From a virus: a stretch of 64,000 nt of DNA. Location of the stretch: the IMG/VR virus record IMGVR_UViG_3300046804_002724, positions 1 to 64,000 of that record. One strand, written 5' to 3'. The first letter of the stretch is position 1; each line of letters begins with the position of its first letter. The notes beneath the pieces are model-generated. The model made no database searches, was not told the DNA's origin, and worked only from the letters and a program-made list of their open reading frames with translations. The position numbers and the translations under genes are program-made. Shown piece after piece: positions 18,262 through 43,249 of this stretch.

Positions 18262-18960
18262 ATGTTACCAAATGCAGAATATTTAGCAACAGGAATAATG
18301 GTGTATAGAGATGTCTTTAAAAAAGAAGATAACTACATAGATAGATTAGAAAAAGCACTTGGATCTGAAGAAAACGTAAAATATAGTTGGCGTCCAGGAT
18401 ATACTGGGTATGGTGCAAAAAATTTAAAATATAGAGATTGCGTTGATTTTAAGATTAAGGTTAACGAAGATGAATCTCTTTCCGCACACATGGACAATAT
18501 AAGAAAAGAAGATCAGGATGATTTAGATAGAGATTTAATTAGAATTTGGCAAGATGCTTATTATGCACAATTACCAGCGGTAGATGACTATAGAAATATG
18601 TTTGGAATAGCACCACTAAAATATTGGGAATCTTTTAATTTTATTAGATATAATGAGGGTCAACACTTTCAAATTCATTCAGATCACGGATATTCATACA
18701 CCTGCGTTTTATCTCTTGTTGGATATTTAAACGATGACTATGAAGGTGGAGAATTACATTTTGATAAACTTGGCTTAACAATTAAGCCTAAAGCTGGAGA
18801 TTTATATCTTTTCCCTTCATCATATATATATTCTCATGCAGCAATGCCAGTAACATCTGGAACAAAATATTCAATTGTAACTATGCTAGATTATTTAGAA
18901 ACAGCTCATACTCCAGAATATAGAAACCTGGAGGCAAAATATTCTGGGTCATTACTTTAA
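18262..18960 (+). CDS. 2OG-Fe(II) oxygenase, P4H type (cluster member 1)
   Basis: A 232-residue dioxygenase. Fe ligands are H139-x-D141 (QIHSDHGYS) and H192 (YSHAAM). Lys202 (GTKYSIVTM) replaces the usual Arg that binds 2-oxoglutarate. The segment GYLNDDYEGGELHFDKLGLT is the classic P4Hc beta core, and IKPKAGDLYLFPSS the following turn. It should hydroxylate an unknown substrate using 2OG and O2. Its stop overlaps the next start (TAATG), showing coupling to the DUF6065 gene. Confidence 0.88.
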   Translation: MLPNAEYLATGIMVYRDVFKKEDNYIDRLEKALGSEENVKYSWRPGYTGYGAKNLKYRDCVDFKIKVNEDESLSAHMDNIRKEDQDDLDRDLIRIWQDAYYAQLPAVDDYRNMFGIAPLKYWESFNFIRYNEGQHFQIHSDHGYSYTCVLSLVGYLNDDYEGGELHFDKLGLTIKPKAGDLYLFPSSYIYSHAAMPVTSGTKYSIVTMLDYLETAHTPEYRNLEAKYSGSLL

Positions 18961-19658
18961 TGTATAATATTAAAGCATTTAGATTAAATGATTTAGGAAA
19001 TATATCTCCATCATCAGTAAAAAGAGATTGGATGGATTACACCTACGATAGACATGCCTATAATTGTTTTCCAGTAACTCTTACAAATTCTTTAGGTTGG
19101 AGCGTTTCTTTTCCAGAAGAAATTTCATTTATTTGGGATGGCATTTCAGATAGTTCTTCAGAACATGTCAAAGTCCTATCTGGAGAAAAATATGTTTCCA
19201 CTAGAAGAGCAAACGGAACTATTAGTTTTAATATAGGAATGGGCTTTAAAACTGAAAAAGATTTAAGTTTATTATGCATGCCCACTCCAAATATGTTTAT
19301 ACGTGGAGCACAATGTTTTACAACATTGATAACAACATCTTTTTTTCACGGAGATTTTCCAGTTGTTTGGAAAATTACAGAACCTATGATTAAAATTACA
19401 ATTCCAGCAAATACTCCTGTTGCAAATATAATACCAATTTCATTAACTAACTTGCAAAATTCTGAAATAGAATTTGTAAATATTAATGAGATGCCATCAA
19501 CTAATTGTGATCATGAAACTACAATGAAAAAAATTAAAGAAGCAACAGACAACGGCGGATGGACAAATTTTTATAGAGATGCAGTAGACGCATGTGGAAA
19601 TGTTTTAGGAGAACATGAAGTTAAGGCAATAAGGTTAAAGGTTTTAAATAATGGCTAA
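18960..19658 (+). CDS. DUF6065 family protein
   Basis: The sequence fits the DUF6065 pattern as I know it. The N-terminus has KRDWMDYTYDRHAYNCFPVT and TNSLGWSVSFPEEISFIWDG, followed by GTISFNIGMGF. The C-terminal part has TPNMFIRGAQ, FFHGDFPVVWKIT and IPANTPVANIIPI. No function is established for the family; the strand-rich pattern suggests a beta-sandwich. It lies between two 2OG oxygenases with overlapping starts and stops, so a shared pathway is likely. Members occur beside oxygenases in other phages to my knowledge, but I cannot check that here. Confidence 0.75.
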   Translation: MYNIKAFRLNDLGNISPSSVKRDWMDYTYDRHAYNCFPVTLTNSLGWSVSFPEEISFIWDGISDSSSEHVKVLSGEKYVSTRRANGTISFNIGMGFKTEKDLSLLCMPTPNMFIRGAQCFTTLITTSFFHGDFPVVWKITEPMIKITIPANTPVANIIPISLTNLQNSEIEFVNINEMPSTNCDHETTMKKIKEATDNGGWTNFYRDAVDACGNVLGEHEVKAIRLKVLNNG

Positions 19659-20367
19659 AATTACATTTCATTCAAATAGAACATATAATACTACGCAAAA
19701 TGAATTAAATCCTCAGCCAACCAAAAAAAATATGCCAAAATGGTTTGTGGAATCAAGTAGACATTGGTTTCCAGAAAATAAAGAAACATTATCTTTTAAA
19801 GCTTGTCCAGCAATTGTAGATGCTTTTTTAACGGGATATGTTTTAAAAACTCCTTGTGACATTAATTTTTCAAAAAATTCTATTAGTGATTTGTTTAAAG
19901 GTCATGTTGAAACCTTTAAGGCAATAACCGAAAAAGGGTATGAGGATTTTTGTGGATCAAGACCAACAATGCCAGGTTTTCCAATACCTCCAGGATTTGA
20001 AAAACATTTTCATTGGTATCCTAATTGGATGCCAGGATTAGAGCCTGGGTATAGTGCACTTTATGTACATCCTTTAAATAGATACGATTTACCATTCATT
20101 ACCCTCTCTGGTATAATAGATAATGATAAGATGAATACCCCAGGATTAATGCCATTTTTTTTAAAAGAAGGTTTTGAGGGGGTAATTCCAAAAGGAACAC
20201 CATATGTTCAAATTATTCCATATAAAAGAGAAGAATGGGAATCTTCTGAAAAAATGTATTCACTAGAAGAAATAGTTGAAAGACATGAATACCAAGCTAA
20301 TAAGTTTAGAGTTCCAGAAGGTGGAGCATATAAGAAAAAAGTTTGGTCTAGAAAGAGGTATGATTAA
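19651..20367 (+). CDS. Hypothetical protein, probable relative of DUF6065
   Basis: A 238-residue protein with KKNMPKWFVESSRHWFPENK, SFKACPAIVDAFLTGYVLKT and PGYSALYVHPLNRYDLPFIT. It also has NTPGLMPFFLKEGFEGVIPKG followed by TPYVQIIPYKREEW. The last part parallels the DUF6065 C-terminus (FPVVWKIT ... IPANTPVANIIPI), so the two are probably distant paralogues with the same fold. It overlaps the DUF6065 gene by 8 bases with AAAGG as ribosome site. Function unknown. Confidence 0.6.
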   Translation: MAKITFHSNRTYNTTQNELNPQPTKKNMPKWFVESSRHWFPENKETLSFKACPAIVDAFLTGYVLKTPCDINFSKNSISDLFKGHVETFKAITEKGYEDFCGSRPTMPGFPIPPGFEKHFHWYPNWMPGLEPGYSALYVHPLNRYDLPFITLSGIIDNDKMNTPGLMPFFLKEGFEGVIPKGTPYVQIIPYKREEWESSEKMYSLEEIVERHEYQANKFRVPEGGAYKKKVWSRKRYD

Positions 20368-21086
20368 TGAATATGATGAAATGGGACACAAGTGGAAACA
20401 TGTCCAACTTTAATGCTAAATCCATAACTCCCTCTGGATTTTTTGGCATTTCTGACAAAAATATTGTAGAAGTAGAAAACTTTATTACAGAAGAAGAGCA
20501 AAAAACCCTATTAGATTTTGCAAAAAATAATTCATCATTTGATGATCCTCCAACAGAATATAATGAAAATGGAACTGTTATTTACGACGAAAGACCATGG
20601 GTTAATAGGGTAGCAACTGGCGAAACTTTATTAAAAAATGGACCACATATAATACCTTTGTTGTTGGGCATCACGGATAGATTTAAAAAAATCATAGAAA
20701 ATTTTTTTGAAGTTGAAGTTATATGTACTGGACCCGCAATTGTCAGATGGCCTGTAGGAGCTAGACAGGAACCTCATGCCGATAAAGAATTACATGAAGG
20801 TCCAGATGCTGGAACTCCAAATTCTTTTCCTTGGTATGATATTGGAACAGTTTTTTATCTGAACGATGATTACGAAGGTGGAGAATTATATTTTCCAAAA
20901 CAGGGTATAGAATTTAAACCTAAAGCACGAGCAGGATATTTTTTCCCAGGAGATATGAATTATATTCATGGAGTAAGGCCTATACTTAAAGGATGTAGAT
21001 ATACTACTCCATATTTTTGGACTATAACAAAATTACCAGAAAAATTTAACGGACCAAAGGATTTTATAAATGAGTCAAATTACTAA
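20367..21086 (+). CDS. 2OG-Fe(II) oxygenase, P4H type (cluster member 2)
   Basis: A 239-residue dioxygenase. Fe ligands are H137-x-D139 (QEPHADKE) and H201 (NYIHGVR); R211 (CRYTTP) binds 2-oxoglutarate. Core strands FYLNDDYEGGELYFPKQG and FKPKARAGYFFPG are present. The N-terminal part (EVENFITEEEQKTLLDFAKN) is the usual helical P4H entry. All catalytic residues are intact. Its start is coupled to the previous stop; it overlaps the next gene by 17 bases. Confidence 0.9.
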   Translation: MNMMKWDTSGNMSNFNAKSITPSGFFGISDKNIVEVENFITEEEQKTLLDFAKNNSSFDDPPTEYNENGTVIYDERPWVNRVATGETLLKNGPHIIPLLLGITDRFKKIIENFFEVEVICTGPAIVRWPVGARQEPHADKELHEGPDAGTPNSFPWYDIGTVFYLNDDYEGGELYFPKQGIEFKPKARAGYFFPGDMNYIHGVRPILKGCRYTTPYFWTITKLPEKFNGPKDFINESNY

Positions 21087-21789
21087 ATATAAGGAAGAGT
21101 GTTTCTCAATAGATAATTTTTTAAGCAAACATGAATGTGATGCTATCATTGCATATACAGAATGGCTTGTTGAAAATAACATATTAGAATGGAATCAAAT
21201 TTCTTTTTATGATTCTTTCGCTATGGGATTTTGGCCATACGATCCAAATTTACAATATTTTGGATTACCTCAAAATTATTTTCATGATATTTTAAAGCCA
21301 AAAATAAAAGAAGCTTGTGAAAATGTATTAGGAAAAGAAGTTGCAGAGGTTAGTTATCATGCACAAAAATGGACTGACGGAGCTTATGCATCTTTTCATT
21401 CAGATAATTCAGATGAAGATGGAAATCCAACAGAGTTTGAAAGAAGTAAATATGCTGCTTTTATTTATCTAAATGATACTTTTGAAGGTGGCTATCTAAA
21501 TTTTAAACACCATGATGTAAAGATACATCCTAAACCTGGCATGATTGCTATTTTTGCTGGCGGATATACAAACGAACATGAAGTTACAAAAGTTCATAAT
21601 GGAACAAGATATACAGTAGGTTCTTTTTGGGATAATGCAGATGCTACATATACTGAAGAGCAAATTAAAGAAAGAGAAGAAAGATTAAAGAAAACAAGAG
21701 CAGAACAAGATTTAACTTATAAACAATGGGCAGAAGAAAAAGAAAAAGGAATTGTTCAGGAATATATAGGAAAATATGGTGAAAAATGA
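21070..21789 (+). CDS. 2OG-Fe(II) oxygenase, P4H type (cluster member 3)
   Basis: A 239-residue dioxygenase with H110-x-D112 (SFHSDNSD), H170 (NEHEV) and R180 (GTRYTVGSFW). Core segment AAFIYLNDTFEGGYLNFKHH and IHPKPGMIAIFAGG are typical. The last 45 residues are a charged helix rich in Glu and Lys, absent from its neighbours, perhaps for partner binding. Overlaps the next gene by four bases (ATGA). Confidence 0.9.
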   Translation: MSQITKYKEECFSIDNFLSKHECDAIIAYTEWLVENNILEWNQISFYDSFAMGFWPYDPNLQYFGLPQNYFHDILKPKIKEACENVLGKEVAEVSYHAQKWTDGAYASFHSDNSDEDGNPTEFERSKYAAFIYLNDTFEGGYLNFKHHDVKIHPKPGMIAIFAGGYTNEHEVTKVHNGTRYTVGSFWDNADATYTEEQIKEREERLKKTRAEQDLTYKQWAEEKEKGIVQEYIGKYGEK

Positions 21790-22640
21790 ATAAAATAGAA
21801 ATATATCCAAGAGTTACTGTATATAAAAATACATTACCACGAAATAAAGACTATACAAATCTTTTAAAAAAATCTGAAAAAGAAGATCCAAAATATTTTT
21901 TCCAAGAGTGGGCAGACTGGTATGGATTTGGTACCATGATGAATTTGCCAATGAATAACCCAGGAATACCATATGAAATTAATTCAGATGATGAATATGC
22001 ATTATTACAAAAAGATTTTTTACAAACTATAACAGACGCATATTATGCTTGTACTGCAGATTATGCAATATCAAACAATATTCAATTGCCAAACTGGGTA
22101 AATAATGGAATTTCAATATGTAAGTATTGGGAAAGTCCACCACAAAATACAATGGCAATGCATTACCACACAGATTATAGAGGATTTGACGCAGAATCAC
22201 CAGGTAAAAAATATGCAATAACATGTACAATTTATATAAATGATGACTATGATGGCGGAGGATTATCCTTTCTTAAAGAAGATTCTGGTGAGGTTATAGA
22301 CTATAAACCAGAAGCTGGAGATATAGTTATATTTCCATCAGGAGATCCAATAACTGGAGCATCACATTATTTCCATGGTGTAGATCGTGTAGATAACGGA
22401 GAAAAATATTTTATAAGATGTTTTTGGTCATATGATTTTGAAGGAACTCCAGAATGGCATGCCAATAAAGAAAAGTATGGCGAAGAGTGGGAAAAAATGG
22501 ATTCTGAGAGAATGAAAGAAGAGATACATTCTGGAAAATGGCATAAGTATTTAGTCAAGCCAGGAGAAGTTGATCCCAAGCTTGATAGATCAACACCATT
22601 TTTCTTGAAGGATAAAAATGCATATAAAAAAATTAGATGA
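21786..22640 (+). CDS. 2OG-Fe(II) oxygenase, P4H type (cluster member 4)
   Basis: The longest of the cluster (284 aa). Fe ligands are H128-x-D130 (MHYHTDYRG) and H197 (SHYFHGVD); Lys207 (GEKYFIRCFW) stands at the 2OG-binding position. Core TCTIYINDDYDGGGLSFLKE and YKPEAGDIVIFPSG are clear. The C-terminal extension of about 65 residues is charged and unique. It overlaps the next gene by 23 bases. Confidence 0.9.
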   Translation: MNKIEIYPRVTVYKNTLPRNKDYTNLLKKSEKEDPKYFFQEWADWYGFGTMMNLPMNNPGIPYEINSDDEYALLQKDFLQTITDAYYACTADYAISNNIQLPNWVNNGISICKYWESPPQNTMAMHYHTDYRGFDAESPGKKYAITCTIYINDDYDGGGLSFLKEDSGEVIDYKPEAGDIVIFPSGDPITGASHYFHGVDRVDNGEKYFIRCFWSYDFEGTPEWHANKEKYGEEWEKMDSERMKEEIHSGKWHKYLVKPGEVDPKLDRSTPFFLKDKNAYKKIR

Positions 22641-23232
22641 TAATGTTATTTATTATGAAAATGTTTTGGAATATCCAGAAAATTTTATCAATAAGATAGA
22701 GGAATTAGAAGTATTAAATAGTAATACCACTCAGGTTTCAAGGTGGTCTGAATGGAATGCCAGCAATGAAAATAAAAGGTACGGTATTACAAAAAATGGA
22801 AATTTTTCTTCTATGCAATATGCAACTAAAGAAGATATAGAAACTTCCCTACTAGTTTATAAAATAAAAGCTATTTCAGATTTATGTTTTGCTAATTATA
22901 TGAAAGAAACAGGTTGTAATTTTTTAAAATTACCAGATTATTTTAGTATAAGAAAATATGATATTTCTGTTGATATGGGTGCCCATGTAGATTCAGAAGA
23001 TCCAACAGATAAATCTCATCCAGTAGTTTCTGGAGTTTTATATTTAAATAATGACTATGTAGGCGGAGAAATATATTTTCCAGAACAAAATATTAAAATT
23101 AAACCAGAGGCTGGAAGCATGGTTATGTTTCCAGCACATAGACCATATTTGCATCACCCTCTCCCAGTAATAGAAGGAAGCAAATACATGGTTCCATTTT
23201 TTTGGTACCCAATGGATACCGTTTGGAAATGA
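22618..23232 (+). CDS. 2OG-Fe(II) oxygenase, P4H type (cluster member 5)
   Basis: A 204-residue dioxygenase with H123-x-D125 (MGAHVDSED), H179 or H180 (YLHHPLP) and Lys189 (GSKYMVPFFW). Core GVLYLNNDYVGGEIYFPEQN and KPEAGSMVMFPA are typical. AAGGA precedes the ATG inside the previous gene. It is the closest relative of the decayed gene that follows, judging from NVIYYENVLEYPENFINKIE against TVYFKNVLSEPDKLIEFINE. Confidence 0.88.
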   Translation: MHIKKLDDNVIYYENVLEYPENFINKIEELEVLNSNTTQVSRWSEWNASNENKRYGITKNGNFSSMQYATKEDIETSLLVYKIKAISDLCFANYMKETGCNFLKLPDYFSIRKYDISVDMGAHVDSEDPTDKSHPVVSGVLYLNNDYVGGEIYFPEQNIKIKPEAGSMVMFPAHRPYLHHPLPVIEGSKYMVPFFWYPMDTVWK

Positions 23233-34888: not shown

Positions 34889-37800
34889 GTGGCCGACGAG
34901 CAAATTGTAACGAGTATAGTTGCCAAAGCTGACTTGTCTAGCCTTGTGTCTGAAGTACACAGGGCTACCTCTAGTTTACAACAATTACAAAGAGAATTAA
35001 ACGCATCCAACAGATCTATAGCATCTGCAACTAAAGTTGCTAATAATTTATTTAGAGATACACTTGTTGGCAGTGGAATGTTTTCAAGCCACTTTGTTAA
35101 TTTAAATTCTGATGTTGATAAATTTGGAAAAAATCTTGATGCTGGAAGATTAAAGCTTAAAGATTATTTTTCTACTTTTCAAACTCATTTAAGAACATCT
35201 AAAGGCTATATAAGAGAACTTGCTAAAGAGCAGGTAATGCTTGAAAATTCTATATTGCAACCATTAGGCAGGAACGCACAAGGCTTAATGCAATATAACG
35301 TAATGATTCCAAGAGGCCTGGATTTAGTTAAAAATAGAACTCAATTAGCTCGTATGGAAATGCAGATAATGAATAGAGCATTATCTGAAGGAGCAACGTC
35401 ATTAATTAACTGGGGTAAAAATACTCAGTGGGCAGGTCGTCAGTTAACCGTAGGTTTAACAGTGCCTCTTTCTATGTTTGGTGCTCAAGCTGCAAAAGCT
35501 TTCAGAGAAGCGGACCAAGAATTAACTAGATTAGTTAAAGTTTACGGAGATTTATCTGGAGCAACTTCTCAAGAATTAGCACAAATAAGAAAAGATGTTA
35601 TTACAACTTCTAAAGAATTAGCAAGCGGAATGGGTGTTTCATTTAAAGAAACAATTGGTCTTGCAGCAGACATTGCAGCAACTGGAAAGCAAGGAAATGA
35701 ATTACTTGGATCTTTAAAAGAAACAACAAGATTAGCAGTTCTTGGAGAAGTTGATAGAGCAGAGGCAATGAAGGCTACTCTTGCAATTCAAACTGCATTT
35801 AAATCAAACACTAAAGAATTAACAGAATCAATTAACTTTTTAAACGCAGTTGAAAACCAGACCTCAACAACTCTTGGCGATCTTGTTGAGGGAATTCCAA
35901 AAGCTGGTACTGTTATTAAACAGCTTGGCGGTAGTGTTAAAGATCTTGCTTTATATCTTACTGCTATGAAAGAAGGTGGAGTTAGTGCTTCAGAAGGAGC
36001 AAACGCCCTAAAGTCTGGACTCGCTTCTATGATTAATCCAACTAAACAAACAGTAACAATGTTTAAGAGTTTTGGCATAGACGTAATGGGAATGGTTGAA
36101 CGAAATACTGGCAACACTACAGGCATGATTTTAGAATTGCAAAAAGCATTAGATGGTTTAGATCCATTAAGTAAAGCAAGAGCACTTGAACAAATGTTTG
36201 GTAAATTCCAATTTGCAAGAATGTCTGCATTATTTAATAACCTTGGAAAACAGGGAAGTCAAACATTACAAGTAATGCAATTAATGAACGCCAGCGCAAA
36301 AGATTTAGCAAATGTAGCAAGTCGAGAATTAGGAATGGTAACTGAATCAGCTTCTGGAAAGTATAGAAGAGCTATCGAAGGATTAAGAGCAAATCTTGCA
36401 GATATGGGAGAAGGTTTCTTGGGAATTGCTACTAAATTCATTAATGCATTTTCAAAAGTTTTAGAGTTTTTTAATAATTTACCAGAGCCAATTAAAAAAG
36501 CAGTTACATATTTAGGTGGATTTACTGCAGTTATTGGACCAGTTATTATGTTAACTGGTGTACTTGCAAACTTTTTTGGATATATAACTAAAGGAATAGT
36601 TCAGCTAAAAGCATTTTTCCAAAGAGCACATGGATGGAAGATGCTTACTCCAGAAATGATTGCTACTCAAAAAGCCGCCGAATTAGTAGAAAAATCATTT
36701 TATTCAGATGCTCAAGCAGCAGAAGTTTTGCATGGAGCATTAACTAAATTAGTTTCAGATTATATGAATTTGCAAACAGCAATGTCAAAAGGATCTGTTC
36801 CAGTTAATCCATTAGTTTCAACTTCCGCTGGAAATGTAATAATGAATCCAATTAGAAGAGAGGTTGATCCTAATAGTCCATATGTTGGCGCAGAAGATAC
36901 TAGAGCAATGTCTCATATTAACCCAAGAGATATTAACAATCCAGCTTCTCTTATGGGAGTTGTTCCTGGAGCATTACCAGTAAATAGAGGAATTGCAAAA
37001 ACTCCACAGATTTATATGCACGATAGATTACCAGATGTTCCTGGATTAACAAGTGTTAAGGGGATTTCCACAGGTATAGTTGCTGGTGAAGCAGCAAGAT
37101 TCCATGCATTAATGGCTACACTTGGAATGCAAACAGAGGCAGAGGTAGCATCACTTAAAAAAACAATTGCACTTGGCGGTACAGTTAGCTCAGAATTATT
37201 AGCAACGTTTGACGACATATTGCCTATGACAACAAGGTTAGCAGACAATGCAGCAACTGAATCTGCAGCAATAGTTGCACAATTACGTGCAGGAAAGCTT
37301 ACTGTAGATCAAGCTAAAACTGAAATTATGGCAATTAATGCACAACTTGAAGCTTCGTTGCAATCTGAAATATCTACATATGCATCATCAAGAGGAAGAA
37401 CAATTGATTTTACAAAAGCACCTTTAATGAATCAGCCAGTTGTTGATGCTAATGCACAATTTACATTAAGAGATTTGTATAAAAAAGAAGGCAACAAAGC
37501 TGTTATGGAAGAATTTGGTAGATTGCGTGGAATTAGAACTTTTGGCGCACCATATAGCATTCAGACAACAAGGTTTCCTAAATTTGAACAGGGTGGATCT
37601 GTTGAAGGGTTTGGCCCAAACAAAACAGTAGTATCAGGATCAACATCAATTAATTATGATGATAGACTTGGTAGAGTTCCACTAGGTGGATATGTATTAA
37701 ATCAAAGTGCATCGTTAGACTCAGGCAATTCAGATTTAATTGCAATGGCACCATATACATTTGAAAATGGTGGAGAAATAACAGCAGCATTAACTCCAGG

Positions 37801-40800
37801 AGAAGTTGTATTTGGACCTAAAATACATAGGGTTCCAGGTTTATATGATGCATTAGAAGCGGCAAATAATGGTTATAATTTTGGCGGGCAGATCATGCGT
37901 AATAAAGGAAATTATGGACAAGAAGCAAAAGAGAGTCCAGCATATTACAGAAAACAGTTAGGCGAACTTGTTAAATTTATAAATAGTCCAGCATATGAAG
38001 ATTCAGTAAGAATGAGAATGGTTATGTTGGATGCTGCAGAATTAATTCAATATGGAAAATTATCTCCAAAAGATGCTGTTGATAAAGCTTTTGTTAATTT
38101 CCAATCTGCAAAAAATAAATCGGGTGGAAGCCTAGAAGCTTTTATTAAAGAAAGAATAAAGCAAGTAAAAGCCTTGGAAAGAAAATATCCTGGACTAAAA
38201 CATCCAAACAGAACAAGTACTAGAGTGCCAAATAGCTCAGCATTAAATTTAAATATTTCAAAATTAAAAAATCTAATGTTGACAGATCCAAGATTTGCAA
38301 ATGTTGCTCAAGAATTAGAAAGTATGATTGTATTTGATCCCAAAAAGGTAAATACCGCTGGTGTGCCTTATTTGCAGATGCGTGATACAAGAGGAATTAA
38401 AATTGGTCAAGCAAGAGCCCACTTATTAAGACATGGAGAAGTCGGGTATGCAACAAGAGGACATATGGGTGTTGCAGCAGTTTTAGATGCAGAATTAAAT
38501 TCAATGATGGCAAGATTAGATCAAATAGGTTTAAGACCAGATGTTTTACATTTAACTCAATCCGATGCTAAAGAATCATTAAATAATTTAATTAAAAAAG
38601 CTGGAATGGGCAATATGACAACGCTAGATGATATAGCAGTAGCTTTGTCAGATCCAGGAAATAAATTCCCAAGTAAAAAAGAACTTGCAGATATAAAAGC
38701 TGGAAGAGCACTTCCTTTAAGGGCTACACCAGAACAAAAAAATTCATTAAAAATGTTACTTCAAGCTGTTTCTGAAAGAAAAAGATGGGTTTTGCGAGGA
38801 AGACCTCCAGTTCCAGTTCTTGCTTCATTCAATAAGGGTGGCGGAGTAGTAACACCTGGAAGGCCTAATTATGGAAACATAATGTCCTTATTGTCTCCAG
38901 AAAAAATGCTTAAAATTTTAGCAACATCAAAAGAATTTAGTAGTAGTGTTGCAAAGGGAAGTTTTGCAGGGATGCAACCAGTCAAATATGGACACATGGT
39001 TTCACCAAGTACTGGAATGAGTTACCCGATACCTGGTGTTTCTGGTCTGTATAAAGATGCAGAAGGAAATTTAAAATTCTTTAAAGGCGTTCCAAATGAA
39101 ATAACTGCTAAAGCAGAAATATATGGAACTAGAATGGCTAGAGAAGTATTTGGTCTCGAATCACCAGAACAAACTATTAGAACTATCCTTAACCCACTAG
39201 ACCCTTCTGGTAAAAGTAAACTTTTAGGATTAGAGTCTCCATTCGATCCTAAATTTGCTACTGGCGGAACTGGTTTTAATGAAGATCAAATGATTAGACA
39301 AACAATTGCTTCTTTAATTATGGGAAATAAAGATTTATCAAAATCAAATGTTTTTGGAAATATACTTGCCGATGTTGGACCAGCAGGAGTTTTTTCTAGG
39401 GCATCAATGAATACTGCTTATGCAGAATCAATGAATTCGATGGAAAAACAAGCAATGATTAATTTACTTGCGGTTAGGGGCGGAGCAAGAAAAGATTTTG
39501 CTTATTCTACTGCCCCTATTGCAGCAGGAATGACTGCAAGACAGTATGGAAGTAAAATGCGCTCTGCAATGAAATCAATGCATCCAAAATTAATTAATTT
39601 CATTAAATCTATTCCAGAATCTGATAGAGCTCCATATATTGCTTTGCTAAAAAGATTTGAAGAAGGAATGGATGTAAATTGGAGCAAATACCACTCAATA
39701 CATTCAAATCCAAAGTTTAATTCTGGTGGTGGAATAATTAGAACAGGAAAGTATGGTTATGGAAGACCAGGAAATCCTGCAGCAAGGGCAGCATGGGAAG
39801 CAAAACAACGTGCACAAAGAGAAAGAGATTTAGAGGCAGCTAGGTCTAGAGCTGCATCTCATCAAGTTTATGGACAACAAGCATTAACAACAGGACTTGG
39901 AAGAGAGGCAGTTAGACAAGGAACTACAAGTTTCTATAATCCTGGACAAGTACTTAGAAATCAAATGATTGATCCATTCCGTAATTCGGCATGGATGAAA
40001 GCATCATATATACAAGCATCATTTTCATCTCTAACTACCACTATAGGTCAAAGTGTAATAAGATTAAATCTTGAACTTATGGCAGCTACTAAGAGAATAA
40101 CAAACACAGTAAGAATTATGTCAGCAAATGCAAGATTAAACCTTTGGACTGGATTAGGCGGAGCGATTGGTTCCACAATAGCTTATGGAAGAAATAAAAG
40201 AACTGAAATATATGGAGAGGCAAGAAATAGGTGGGTAAATGCCTATGGAGTAAATCCACAAACAGGACAACCAGTTGGTTGGAGACCTGGAATGATGACT
40301 GGACCATTGGGATTAACACAATGGAAATCTCAGCATATAGAGGGTCAAGGAACATTAGACACAAGAAAATCTGGATACTATGGATTTAGAAAAAATGAAT
40401 ACAGATTAAATGGTGAAACAATAACAAGACAAGAGGCTGCAGCAAGAGGCCTAATTGCACCAAGAGGACAAATTGGCATGGGTGCACAAATGGGAATTAG
40501 CATGGCTGGAATGGCAGCTGGAAGTGCATTGATGTCAAGTGGAAAAACTGGTTTGGGAATGGGAGTCATGGTTGGATCTAGCATTCTTCCAATGATGGGG
40601 CCACAAATAATGGCTGGAATGACTAAATTAAAAACAGCTACATTGGCAGCTGGAAATGCGTTTAGAGCTGGTGGTGGAGGAGTGAAAGCTTTTGTAACAG
40701 CTTTAACAACATTAAAGGCAGCAGGTCCCTTATTAGCAATAACAGCAATAGTTGGAGCAGTTGCATTCTTAATTAAAAAAACAAGAGAGTGGAATAAAGA

Positions 40801-43249
40801 TGCTCAATTAAGATTTGGAATGAATGCAAAAGCTGCATCACAGGCTGGAATAGAATATACAAAGCTTGCAGATAAAATTAATTTAGTAAAACAAAAACAA
40901 TCTGCACTTCAGAATGTTGGTAAAAATGGAGTTGCTTTTGGCGGAATAACTGGACTAAATATGTCTATTGCAGAATTAAAGAAATATAAAGAAGATGCTA
41001 CTAAAAATCTAGGGGAATTTGTAGATTCATTTAATAGAGCAGATTCAGGCAACATAGCAGAACTTGCAACAAACATTAAAGCTCAGTTTATAGCAGCGGG
41101 CATGAGCGTAGAAGAAGCAAATAAAAAAATTATGGGAATGATAGCAGCCTCTAAAAATTCTACTCTTGCGGTCAAGGTATTAACAGATACAACATTTAAA
41201 GGAATTCAAGATTCATCAACTGCAGCAGAATATTCTTACAAGCATTTAAATCAATTGATAGAAACTGGAAATTCTGGAACTGGACAATATAAGACAAAGA
41301 TTATTGAAGGAATTTCTTCCGTAATAGATTTAACAGACAAATCTATATCTGCCATTAGTGCTCAAAAAGATGCCGCTGGAAATCTCAAGGGAGAATATGT
41401 TGCACTTGAAGAAGTGATTAATAGAATGAAATCTGCAGGTGGATTTGAAGACACCATAGGACTTACAGCATTTGCTCAATTGCCAGCAGAGTTACAGGCA
41501 ATATCAGATCAAAGCGATACAATTGCTGGAATTTATGCAAAATGGAGATTGTTAACAAAGGGCGTTCAGATTAATCTAAAAGAAATTAGTTCAGAAACAG
41601 CATTGGCTATTGATAAATTCTTAACAGCATTTACCGCAGCTCAAGATCAATTAATAGAAGCTGGTAAATCTGCATTTAAATCTGGATTAGGATTTGCTGG
41701 AATAGATGGAACTTTTAAAAAGGTTGGCTATACAATGGCAAGCCTTCAAGATATTATTATTAAAACTGGTAGAGAGGCTGCAATTGCTCAGCAAAAAGCA
41801 TCTCAGGCTGCTCAAGATCAAAATGATAAATTACAAAAACAAATTGATTTAATTCGTGAAGCTGCAAATGCAAAATTAGCTGCAATTGATGCAACAGAAA
41901 GAAAAGATACATATGAAATACAATTACAAAAATCAAAACTTGATTATCAAGACGCTATAGCTAAGGGTGATTTCCAGGCTGCAGAAAGAGCAAGATTAGA
42001 ATTAGTTCAATTACAAAAAGCAAGACAGGCAGAAGAAGCAAAATTAGCAATACAAGAAGAAGCTGCAAGAAAAGAAAAAGCTTTACAGGAACAGCAAAAG
42101 AAAATTGCCGATGCAGAAAAGAAAAGACAAATTGCTTATCAAAATATTCAAAATGAAGCTGCAAGAGCGCAAGAAGCTTTAACAAAAATTACTAACTATT
42201 CACAACAGTATAAAGATCTTTTATTACAAAAACAAACAAATGAATTTATTACAGATCCAAAACTTAAGGCTTCTGCACAAACTCAAACAGATAATCAATT
42301 AACTGCTTTAGTTAAAGAAATTCAAAAAGCAGCTACAATTACCAAGGGTAATCCTGGTTACGATATAGCTGGAGATATTAAAAAAGCATTTAGTCAATTC
42401 TTTGATTCTGCAGGTAAAGCATTAACATTTGATTCATCAAAGCAAGTTCCAACATACGGTACAACAGGATTACAATTAACTACTGTAACTACAAAGGGAA
42501 CAATGGGTGATGTTTTAAATAAAGACTTATCAATTGTAAAACAACAAGCAACTTTAATTACAGGTGGAATGACTTTGAAACAATTAGGTGATTTGCTTGT
42601 TAAAGAATTAGGAAATGGTAAATCGGGCTCGTCTAGCGGCAAAATGAACCCAGGCAAGTACGCAACCGCTGGATACAACAATACGGGAATGATGGATCCA
42701 AATGCTCCTAAAGGTGGAACCGTTGTTACTCAAAGTGGAAAAACTTATATCTACAGTAATGATGGAATTCCTTTCGACACATCTTCAACTGCTGGAAGAT
42801 ATATTGCCTCACAATTAGGCGTTAATTTAAATACAGTGCAACCAATTAAGCTTGCCCCTGGAGGCGTGGTTTTTGGACCAGGTACTGGAACTTCTGATTC
42901 AATACCAGCAATGCTATCAAATGGAGAATTTGTTATAAATGCTAAATCTGCACAAAATATTGGTTATGATAATCTTCATACTTTAAACAGAATGGCTTTT
43001 GGTGGAATTGTCGGTAACGCTACTCTTCCAAGATATAATGTAGGAGGCCTACTTGCAAAATCACAGCGACTAATGATGCATACTGGTGGCACTGCAAGTA
43101 ATGTTACAATAGGTGATATAAATGTTTATGCTGCCCCTGGAATGGATGAAAAAGCTTTGGCTAAAGCTGCAGCAAGAGAAGTGTTTGCAGTAATGTCTGA
43201 CAAGCAATTACAAATGGGACAATCAAAAATAGTAGGTAGGATAAGATAA
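34889..43249 (+). CDS. Tape measure protein with embedded kinase-like domain (2786 aa)
   Basis: GTG start after AAGGAG. Residues about 150-480 are the conserved phage tape measure core (INWGKNTQWAGRQLTVGLTV; FREADQELTRLVKVYGDLSG; EALKSGL-type helices). Residues about 560-580 and 1955-1975 are hydrophobic; residues about 2310-2450 are coiled coil (QIDLIREAANAKLAAIDATE). Several F-x-x-GG linkers (about 899, 958, 1314, 1610) and the C-terminal GTGTSDSIPAMLSNGEFVIN mark modules. One module (1314-1610) looks like a protein kinase/HipA-type fold: K1399 (KFFKG), E1410 (KAEIYG), D1482-x4-N1487 (GNKDLSKSNV) and D1495 (ADVG). At about 1.5 angstrom per residue this predicts a very long tail. Confidence 0.85.
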   Translation: MADEQIVTSIVAKADLSSLVSEVHRATSSLQQLQRELNASNRSIASATKVANNLFRDTLVGSGMFSSHFVNLNSDVDKFGKNLDAGRLKLKDYFSTFQTHLRTSKGYIRELAKEQVMLENSILQPLGRNAQGLMQYNVMIPRGLDLVKNRTQLARMEMQIMNRALSEGATSLINWGKNTQWAGRQLTVGLTVPLSMFGAQAAKAFREADQELTRLVKVYGDLSGATSQELAQIRKDVITTSKELASGMGVSFKETIGLAADIAATGKQGNELLGSLKETTRLAVLGEVDRAEAMKATLAIQTAFKSNTKELTESINFLNAVENQTSTTLGDLVEGIPKAGTVIKQLGGSVKDLALYLTAMKEGGVSASEGANALKSGLASMINPTKQTVTMFKSFGIDVMGMVERNTGNTTGMILELQKALDGLDPLSKARALEQMFGKFQFARMSALFNNLGKQGSQTLQVMQLMNASAKDLANVASRELGMVTESASGKYRRAIEGLRANLADMGEGFLGIATKFINAFSKVLEFFNNLPEPIKKAVTYLGGFTAVIGPVIMLTGVLANFFGYITKGIVQLKAFFQRAHGWKMLTPEMIATQKAAELVEKSFYSDAQAAEVLHGALTKLVSDYMNLQTAMSKGSVPVNPLVSTSAGNVIMNPIRREVDPNSPYVGAEDTRAMSHINPRDINNPASLMGVVPGALPVNRGIAKTPQIYMHDRLPDVPGLTSVKGISTGIVAGEAARFHALMATLGMQTEAEVASLKKTIALGGTVSSELLATFDDILPMTTRLADNAATESAAIVAQLRAGKLTVDQAKTEIMAINAQLEASLQSEISTYASSRGRTIDFTKAPLMNQPVVDANAQFTLRDLYKKEGNKAVMEEFGRLRGIRTFGAPYSIQTTRFPKFEQGGSVEGFGPNKTVVSGSTSINYDDRLGRVPLGGYVLNQSASLDSGNSDLIAMAPYTFENGGEITAALTPGEVVFGPKIHRVPGLYDALEAANNGYNFGGQIMRNKGNYGQEAKESPAYYRKQLGELVKFINSPAYEDSVRMRMVMLDAAELIQYGKLSPKDAVDKAFVNFQSAKNKSGGSLEAFIKERIKQVKALERKYPGLKHPNRTSTRVPNSSALNLNISKLKNLMLTDPRFANVAQELESMIVFDPKKVNTAGVPYLQMRDTRGIKIGQARAHLLRHGEVGYATRGHMGVAAVLDAELNSMMARLDQIGLRPDVLHLTQSDAKESLNNLIKKAGMGNMTTLDDIAVALSDPGNKFPSKKELADIKAGRALPLRATPEQKNSLKMLLQAVSERKRWVLRGRPPVPVLASFNKGGGVVTPGRPNYGNIMSLLSPEKMLKILATSKEFSSSVAKGSFAGMQPVKYGHMVSPSTGMSYPIPGVSGLYKDAEGNLKFFKGVPNEITAKAEIYGTRMAREVFGLESPEQTIRTILNPLDPSGKSKLLGLESPFDPKFATGGTGFNEDQMIRQTIASLIMGNKDLSKSNVFGNILADVGPAGVFSRASMNTAYAESMNSMEKQAMINLLAVRGGARKDFAYSTAPIAAGMTARQYGSKMRSAMKSMHPKLINFIKSIPESDRAPYIALLKRFEEGMDVNWSKYHSIHSNPKFNSGGGIIRTGKYGYGRPGNPAARAAWEAKQRAQRERDLEAARSRAASHQVYGQQALTTGLGREAVRQGTTSFYNPGQVLRNQMIDPFRNSAWMKASYIQASFSSLTTTIGQSVIRLNLELMAATKRITNTVRIMSANARLNLWTGLGGAIGSTIAYGRNKRTEIYGEARNRWVNAYGVNPQTGQPVGWRPGMMTGPLGLTQWKSQHIEGQGTLDTRKSGYYGFRKNEYRLNGETITRQEAAARGLIAPRGQIGMGAQMGISMAGMAAGSALMSSGKTGLGMGVMVGSSILPMMGPQIMAGMTKLKTATLAAGNAFRAGGGGVKAFVTALTTLKAAGPLLAITAIVGAVAFLIKKTREWNKDAQLRFGMNAKAASQAGIEYTKLADKINLVKQKQSALQNVGKNGVAFGGITGLNMSIAELKKYKEDATKNLGEFVDSFNRADSGNIAELATNIKAQFIAAGMSVEEANKKIMGMIAASKNSTLAVKVLTDTTFKGIQDSSTAAEYSYKHLNQLIETGNSGTGQYKTKIIEGISSVIDLTDKSISAISAQKDAAGNLKGEYVALEEVINRMKSAGGFEDTIGLTAFAQLPAELQAISDQSDTIAGIYAKWRLLTKGVQINLKEISSETALAIDKFLTAFTAAQDQLIEAGKSAFKSGLGFAGIDGTFKKVGYTMASLQDIIIKTGREAAIAQQKASQAAQDQNDKLQKQIDLIREAANAKLAAIDATERKDTYEIQLQKSKLDYQDAIAKGDFQAAERARLELVQLQKARQAEEAKLAIQEEAARKEKALQEQQKKIADAEKKRQIAYQNIQNEAARAQEALTKITNYSQQYKDLLLQKQTNEFITDPKLKASAQTQTDNQLTALVKEIQKAATITKGNPGYDIAGDIKKAFSQFFDSAGKALTFDSSKQVPTYGTTGLQLTTVTTKGTMGDVLNKDLSIVKQQATLITGGMTLKQLGDLLVKELGNGKSGSSSGKMNPGKYATAGYNNTGMMDPNAPKGGTVVTQSGKTYIYSNDGIPFDTSSTAGRYIASQLGVNLNTVQPIKLAPGGVVFGPGTGTSDSIPAMLSNGEFVINAKSAQNIGYDNLHTLNRMAFGGIVGNATLPRYNVGGLLAKSQRLMMHTGGTASNVTIGDINVYAAPGMDEKALAKAAAREVFAVMSDKQLQMGQSKIVGRIR

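Follow-up and report, generated by a model that had tools for sequence, protein, structure and literature searches.

A predicted kinase-fold domain embedded in a phage tape measure protein

The tape measure protein (TMP) of a phage sets the length of the tail and is normally expelled toward the infected bacterium, and the enzymatic modules known from TMPs are wall hydrolases, which cut the cell wall. The locus examined in this study raises the question of whether a TMP may also carry an enzyme of a different kind into the host. The stretch of DNA analysed (hereafter the window; 64,000 nucleotides) covers nearly the whole of a virus record of 64,644 bases, and an earlier, sequence-only reading of it had proposed a kinase-like domain, bounded by two F-N-x-GG linkers, within the TMP. 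The gene in question is recognisable as a TMP gene by its PhageMin_Tail domain, its very long open reading frame (ORF), and its position after tail tube and chaperone-type genes; it lies in a tail operon, and portal, head protease, and putative head genes are also found ahead of it. Over residues 1-650, the product is similar to TMPs from phages of Streptomyces and Gordonia (tblastn). The features of the TMP gene are as follows.

34889..43249, + strand: TMP gene, GTG start, ORF of 2786 amino acids (aa), carrying the kinase-like domain
35609..36202, + strand: PhageMin_Tail (TMP core), residues 241-438, Pfam E 1.6e-27
36500..36586, + strand: predicted hydrophobic (membrane-compatible) segment 1, residues 538-566, from a hydropathy scan
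37766..38824, + strand: variable module beside the kinase, residues 960-1312, swapped or truncated in many of the kinase-bearing relatives
38828..38845, + strand: N-terminal glycine linker FNKGGG, residues 1314-1319
38897..39706, + strand: kinase-like domain, modelled core, residues 1337-1606, from the AlphaFold2 model and PDB fold matches
39716..39733, + strand: C-terminal glycine linker FNSGGG, residues 1610-1615
40475..40783, + strand: glycine-rich hydrophobic region, residues 1863-1965, including predicted membrane-compatible segment 2 (1941-1965)

The two linkers flank the module as had been claimed (FNKGGG at 1314-1319 and FNSGGG at 1610-1615), and the feature is real, but the start originally given for it lies one base off the codon boundary at 38828. 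Of the two hydrophobic segments predicted, one (538-566) precedes the kinase-like domain and the other (1941-1965) follows it, the latter being adjoined by the glycine-rich stretch. The variable module at 960-1312 also has glycine linkers around it and contains LLRHGE and RGHMG motifs; it was considered as another recognisable enzyme and set aside, as inspection of its patterns gave no convincing catalytic pattern.

Relatives of the domain were collected from IMG/VR in three scans. Search patterns containing none of the five residues named in the sequence-only reading (K1399, E1410, D1482, N1487, and D1495) were used in scans 1 and 2 and yielded 57 unique sequences including the window, while scan 3, with a divergent sub-alignment, brought the total to 203 loci. 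Dereplication left 79 sequences, which with the window make up the 80 compared here; most of these are 29-60% identical to the window. The motifs were found in the places expected, with GLYKDAEGNLKFFKG beginning at residue 1386 (K=1399), KAEIYG at 1408 (E=1410), GNKDLSKSNV at 1479 (D=1482, N=1487), and ADVG at 1494 (D=1495). The positions that define the domain are listed below.

39014..39052, + strand: glycine/serine loop GMSYPIPGVSGLY, residues 1376-1388, linking the first two strands
39083..39085, + strand: K1399, predicted ATP-binding lysine of beta-3, invariant in 80/80, in model strand 1395-1400
39116..39118, + strand: E1410, predicted partner of K1399 in helix C, invariant in 80/80, in model helix 1404-1419
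39233..39238, + strand: E1449-S1450, end of beta-5 and hinge, E in 80/80 and S in 78/80; LES stood in a search pattern
39332..39349, + strand: catalytic-loop motif D1482-L-x-x-x-N1487, with D, L, and N invariant in 80/80 and the D-N spacing fixed at 5
39371..39379, + strand: D1495-V-G1497, predicted DFG-equivalent metal-binding motif, with D and G in 80/80, always 8 after N1487

All five named residues are invariant among the homologous TMPs, both in the first set (57/57) and in the widened one (80/80). K1399 was partly selected for in the scan-3 set only, because one scan-3 pattern held the VFVKPM stretch, and E1449 falls within the patterns of all three scans. Within the glycine/serine loop, G1376, S1378, and G1386 are invariant in the 80-sequence alignment, and the spacings K-E (11), D-N (5), and N-D (8) are constant across it. 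Invariance is otherwise uncommon, being found at 24 of 282 alignment positions and at 7 of the 61 D/E/K/N residues of the domain, with the five named residues among those seven (hypergeometric P = 3.5e-6). Since all five are invariant and few other D/E/K/N residues are, the motif set is not a product of chance. Compared to the closest relatives, dN/dS is 0.17-0.24, an approximate range because dS is near 1 there.

A first AlphaFold2 model, for which 26 sequences were used, had a mediocre pLDDT of 76 and was poor near the catalytic loop, while the model from 80 sequences reached a pLDDT of 94.7 and a pTM of 0.91, with the catalytic-loop region now good. In this model, there are strands at 1370-1373, 1386-1389, and 1395-1400 (holding K1399), a helix at 1404-1419 (holding E1410), and further strands at 1429-1434 and 1444-1451 (holding E1449). 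These are followed by a helix at 1465-1478, the loop D1482-N1487, a short hairpin, D1495-V-G1497, and then helices to residue 1606, several of which (1518-1606) form the modelled C-lobe beyond the DVG motif. The order of secondary-structure elements is that of kinases and the invariant residues are in register with the predicted elements, so that the features expected of a protein-kinase-like fold are all predicted: two lobes, a beta-3 lysine, a helix-C glutamate, a catalytic-loop Asp/Asn, and a DFG-equivalent aspartate. When the model was compared to the PDB with Foldseek, kinases or kinase-fold enzymes accounted for 50 of the 50 matches listed. The best E-value among these belonged to the FAM20C-type casein kinase 4kqa (6.8e-4), the only listed match below 0.001; CtkA (3akk; probability 1.00, E 1.2e-3), PI4KIIalpha (4hnd), HipA (3dnt), CylM, SidJ, and many MAP kinases were also listed. 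The TM-scores of 0.15-0.40 and the modest E-values indicate that the relation to known kinases is remote. On the basis of this confident model and the uniform fold matches, which bear out the kinase fold proposed for the segment, residues ~1337-1606 almost certainly adopt a kinase fold.

In contrast to this agreement in fold, assignment to a named sequence family was not supported. Searches with hmmscan of Pfam, NCBIfam, and PHROGs returned no credible match to the domain, only chance-level or unrelated ones, and the same was true of PDB sequences searched with phmmer and hmmsearch. The Pfam family PI3_PI4_kinase (PF00454) had no match in the domain and none was found when it was sought in the window's own genome. 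HipA_C likewise had no Pfam match, and hhalign against seven HipA sequences gave probabilities of 0.3-1.2%. Membership in the HipA family was therefore rejected, there being no profile match and no DxHxKN motif (DLxxxN here); a piece from helix C to the hinge aligned to HipA with an E-value of 0.042 in one comparison, a weak result that was not counted. The sequence-only reading had matched the order and spacing of the residues to HipA, actin-fragmin-kinase, and PI3K-like folds. The order K..E..D(x4)N..D, with D and N five apart, is indeed shared with the fold matches HipA and CtkA, but the other spacings are not, as K181-E203 (22) and N314-D332 (18) of E. coli HipA compare to 11 and 8 in the TMP domain. 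The HipA motif D309-x-H311-x-K313-N314, invariant in seven HipA sequences, is replaced by DLxxxN, and unlike HipA the domain is embedded in a TMP, with no stand-alone form found. The proposed assignment thus holds for the fold, with CtkA, HipA, and PI4KIIalpha among the top matches, but fails at the level of a HipA profile match, and the FAM20C-type kinase ranks as high as these three, so that no one kinase subfamily is favoured. The lack of any Pfam, NCBIfam, PHROG, or PDB sequence match or HipA profile match points to an unnamed family with a kinase fold. The best reading is a new atypical-kinase family that is a modular cargo of TMPs and is probably ejected at infection.

The setting of the relatives is consistent with such a cargo. 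In 76 of the 79 dereplicated relatives, the domain shares a single ORF with an N-terminal part that is clearly of TMP type; of the remaining three, one has a partial TMP N-terminus and two have none, and all three ORFs end at a contig edge. The domain was inside a TMP at every intact locus examined, no stand-alone copy was present among the ORFs scanned, and no kinase-profile match fell outside TMPs in 80 loci recruited by the TMP N-terminus. The domain was not found in annotated GenBank phages queried with the domains of the window and two relatives (L043 and L040), and one pattern scan with a profile in bacterial and archaeal genomes gave 50 pattern matches, none of them a relative. No published report of a kinase in a TMP was found in the open-access papers searched. 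Among 42 complete homologous TMP ORFs with N-termini 61-84% similar, the kinase-like domain is present in 5 and absent in 37. The TMPs lacking it are mostly 2050-2500 aa long, and most are ~600 aa shorter. Pairwise alignments of TMPs with and without the kinase match up to ~905-1363 and again from ~1775-1870, with the kinase slot missing and the GG-linker stretch still present at that slot. In a divergent TMP clade the domain lies nearer the N-terminus, at about 730-1100 or 950-1480. Four related TMPs (L198, L199, L200, and L202) contain, besides the kinase, a cytidylyltransferase-like domain of the HIGH superfamily (CTP_transf_like, E 5.1e-9) at ~720-870, which in L199 spans 721-870 with the motifs HQPFTTAH and SATKLR; its presence supports the view that TMPs hold exchangeable enzyme modules. 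In one close relative (L041:7908-9071), the kinase region is split over several reading frames, reflecting either sequencing errors or decay.

Kinase-like domains in other viral proteins provide partial parallels. The first model had matches in the viral structure library BFVD to a 1201-aa portal protein (A0A6J5S481), a PI3K/PI4K-annotated protein of HSTV-2, and an uncharacterised 1479-aa protein (A0A4D6E245) of Gordonia phage GodonK. The match L7TJZ0 (E 7.9e-4, first model) has the same length, 490 aa, as gp16 of HSTV-2, a haloarchaeal tailed virus. As in the TMP, a kinase-like domain is fused to another viral protein; in gp16 this domain is PI3/4-kinase-like and the protein belongs to the head-tail module (motifs FKP, GNDDRHYGN, and IDSG; PF00454 E 1.5e-5; relatives annotated as phosphatidylinositol kinase). 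However, gp16 is not a TMP, and its gene is flanked by those for the major head and tail tube proteins. It was rejected as a sequence relative, as hhalign against the family profile gave no match despite the similar-looking motifs. Polyvalent phage proteins also include a kinase domain within a large multidomain protein for which entry into the host along with the DNA has been predicted (Iyer et al. 2017, PMC5512222). Those kinases are S/T/Y-kinase-like and have lost the whole C-terminal subdomain, and the term 'tape measure' does not occur in that text (PMC5512222); compared by description only, the TMP domain differs in its modelled multi-helix C-lobe. Given HSTV-2 gp16 and the polyvalent-protein kinases, kinases on proteins of virus structural modules are not unheard of, and the structural matches suggest that several virion proteins may contain fused domains of this kind. 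The FAM20C-type kinase, despite its leading E-value among the listed PDB matches, is a eukaryotic secretory (Golgi) enzyme with 10% identity to the TMP domain (TM 0.34-0.40) and has the fold alone in common with it. TMPs with wall hydrolases resemble the present case in that their enzyme module is possibly active at entry, but the module here is a predicted ATP-dependent transferase instead.

A kinase fold, an intact catalytic set, and a setting restricted to TMPs are established computationally, and the domain is likely to be a catalytically active phosphotransferase. In the proposed mechanism, the domain would be a complete two-lobed, optional cargo that this siphophage TMP holds between glycine linkers, in the interval bounded by its hydrophobic segments. 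The N-lobe with K1399 and E1410 would bind ATP, D1482-N1487 would serve as the catalytic loop, and the DVG at 1495 would bind metal. In SPP1, the tail has been described as releasing its TMP before the DNA, and periplasmic egress and a membrane channel have been proposed for R4C (PMC8718954; PMC10276861). In addition, a T6SS effector depends on a glycine zipper for its translocation, and zippers of this kind are present in some prophage TMPs (PMC10240207). Since the expelled TMP carries an intact-looking kinase-fold domain, the phage may introduce a phosphorylating enzyme when it infects, and delivery in active form would be plausible from what is known of TMP ejection. The domain would most likely bind ATP-Mg and phosphorylate either a host target or the TMP itself while the TMP is expelled at DNA entry, and this phosphate transfer could help the incoming genome ahead of any phage gene expression. 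The weakest step is the presumption that, as the phage enters, the kinase segment comes to be exposed at one face of the host membrane: in the cytoplasm, ATP would be at hand and action could precede phage gene expression, while in the periplasm the segment would be without ATP. A further hurdle is the size of the globular domain (~270 aa), which would need to fit into the tail tube or unfold there and refold after exit. Action in the new host after ejection is slightly favoured. Taken as a whole, a TMP-borne kinase-fold cargo enzyme that transfers phosphate upon expulsion of the TMP at entry is the best explanation, with a probability of roughly 0.6.

It is also possible that the domain uses ATP for a different transfer onto a host target, such as AMPylation, glutamylation, or phosphorylation of a lipid, nucleotide, or sugar. 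The kinase fold can catalyse AMPylation, as in SelO, and a lipid kinase (PI4KIIalpha), a glutamylase (SidJ), and CylM appear beside protein kinases among the fold matches. The substrate class is not readable from the motif, since D-L-x-x-x-N replaces HRD or DxH. Nothing specific speaks against another transfer, but the close fold matches are mostly protein kinases, and we regard this alternative as unlikely. The fusion to a structural protein at every intact locus, never as a separate gene, could instead reflect a role within the cell that makes the phage or on the tail itself, such as TMP autophosphorylation or control of tail assembly, rather than in the next host. This is an improbable explanation, as 37 of the 42 complete homologous TMPs build tails without the domain, which is therefore dispensable for assembly.

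Embedding in a structural protein would also suit a pseudoenzyme that retains the kinase fold for structure or binding without catalysis, and catalytic activity is so far a prediction. Unlike in typical pseudokinases, however, the ATP- and metal-binding positions are all invariant down to 29% identity, and the low dN/dS also argues against this reading, which we regard as very improbable. Finally, the absence of an HMM or PDB sequence match is what would be expected if the motifs were a coincidence in ordinary TMP sequence, an idea that is barely credible in view of the high-confidence model, the exclusively kinase-fold matches among those listed, and the selective invariance of the five residues.

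If the cargo-enzyme explanation is correct, the TMP would be an enzyme carrier in addition to a ruler and a channel, and some phages of this type would phosphorylate or otherwise modify a host component during entry, before transcription. More broadly, and only tentatively, the TMPs of a broad environmental phage group could be modular effector carriers, whose linker-spaced enzymes exit before the DNA and modify the host prior to gene expression. The domain adds an unnamed kinase family, found here only in viral TMPs, and raises the question of how a folded enzyme passes through the tail tube. Elsewhere in the window, the packaging genes are preceded by a series of ORFs (18262-23232; ~200-285 aa each) that includes at least five interrelated ORFs of the 2OG-Fe(II) oxygenase type and is accompanied by a DUF6065 protein; this series is possibly a cluster for host-surface or nucleotide modification.
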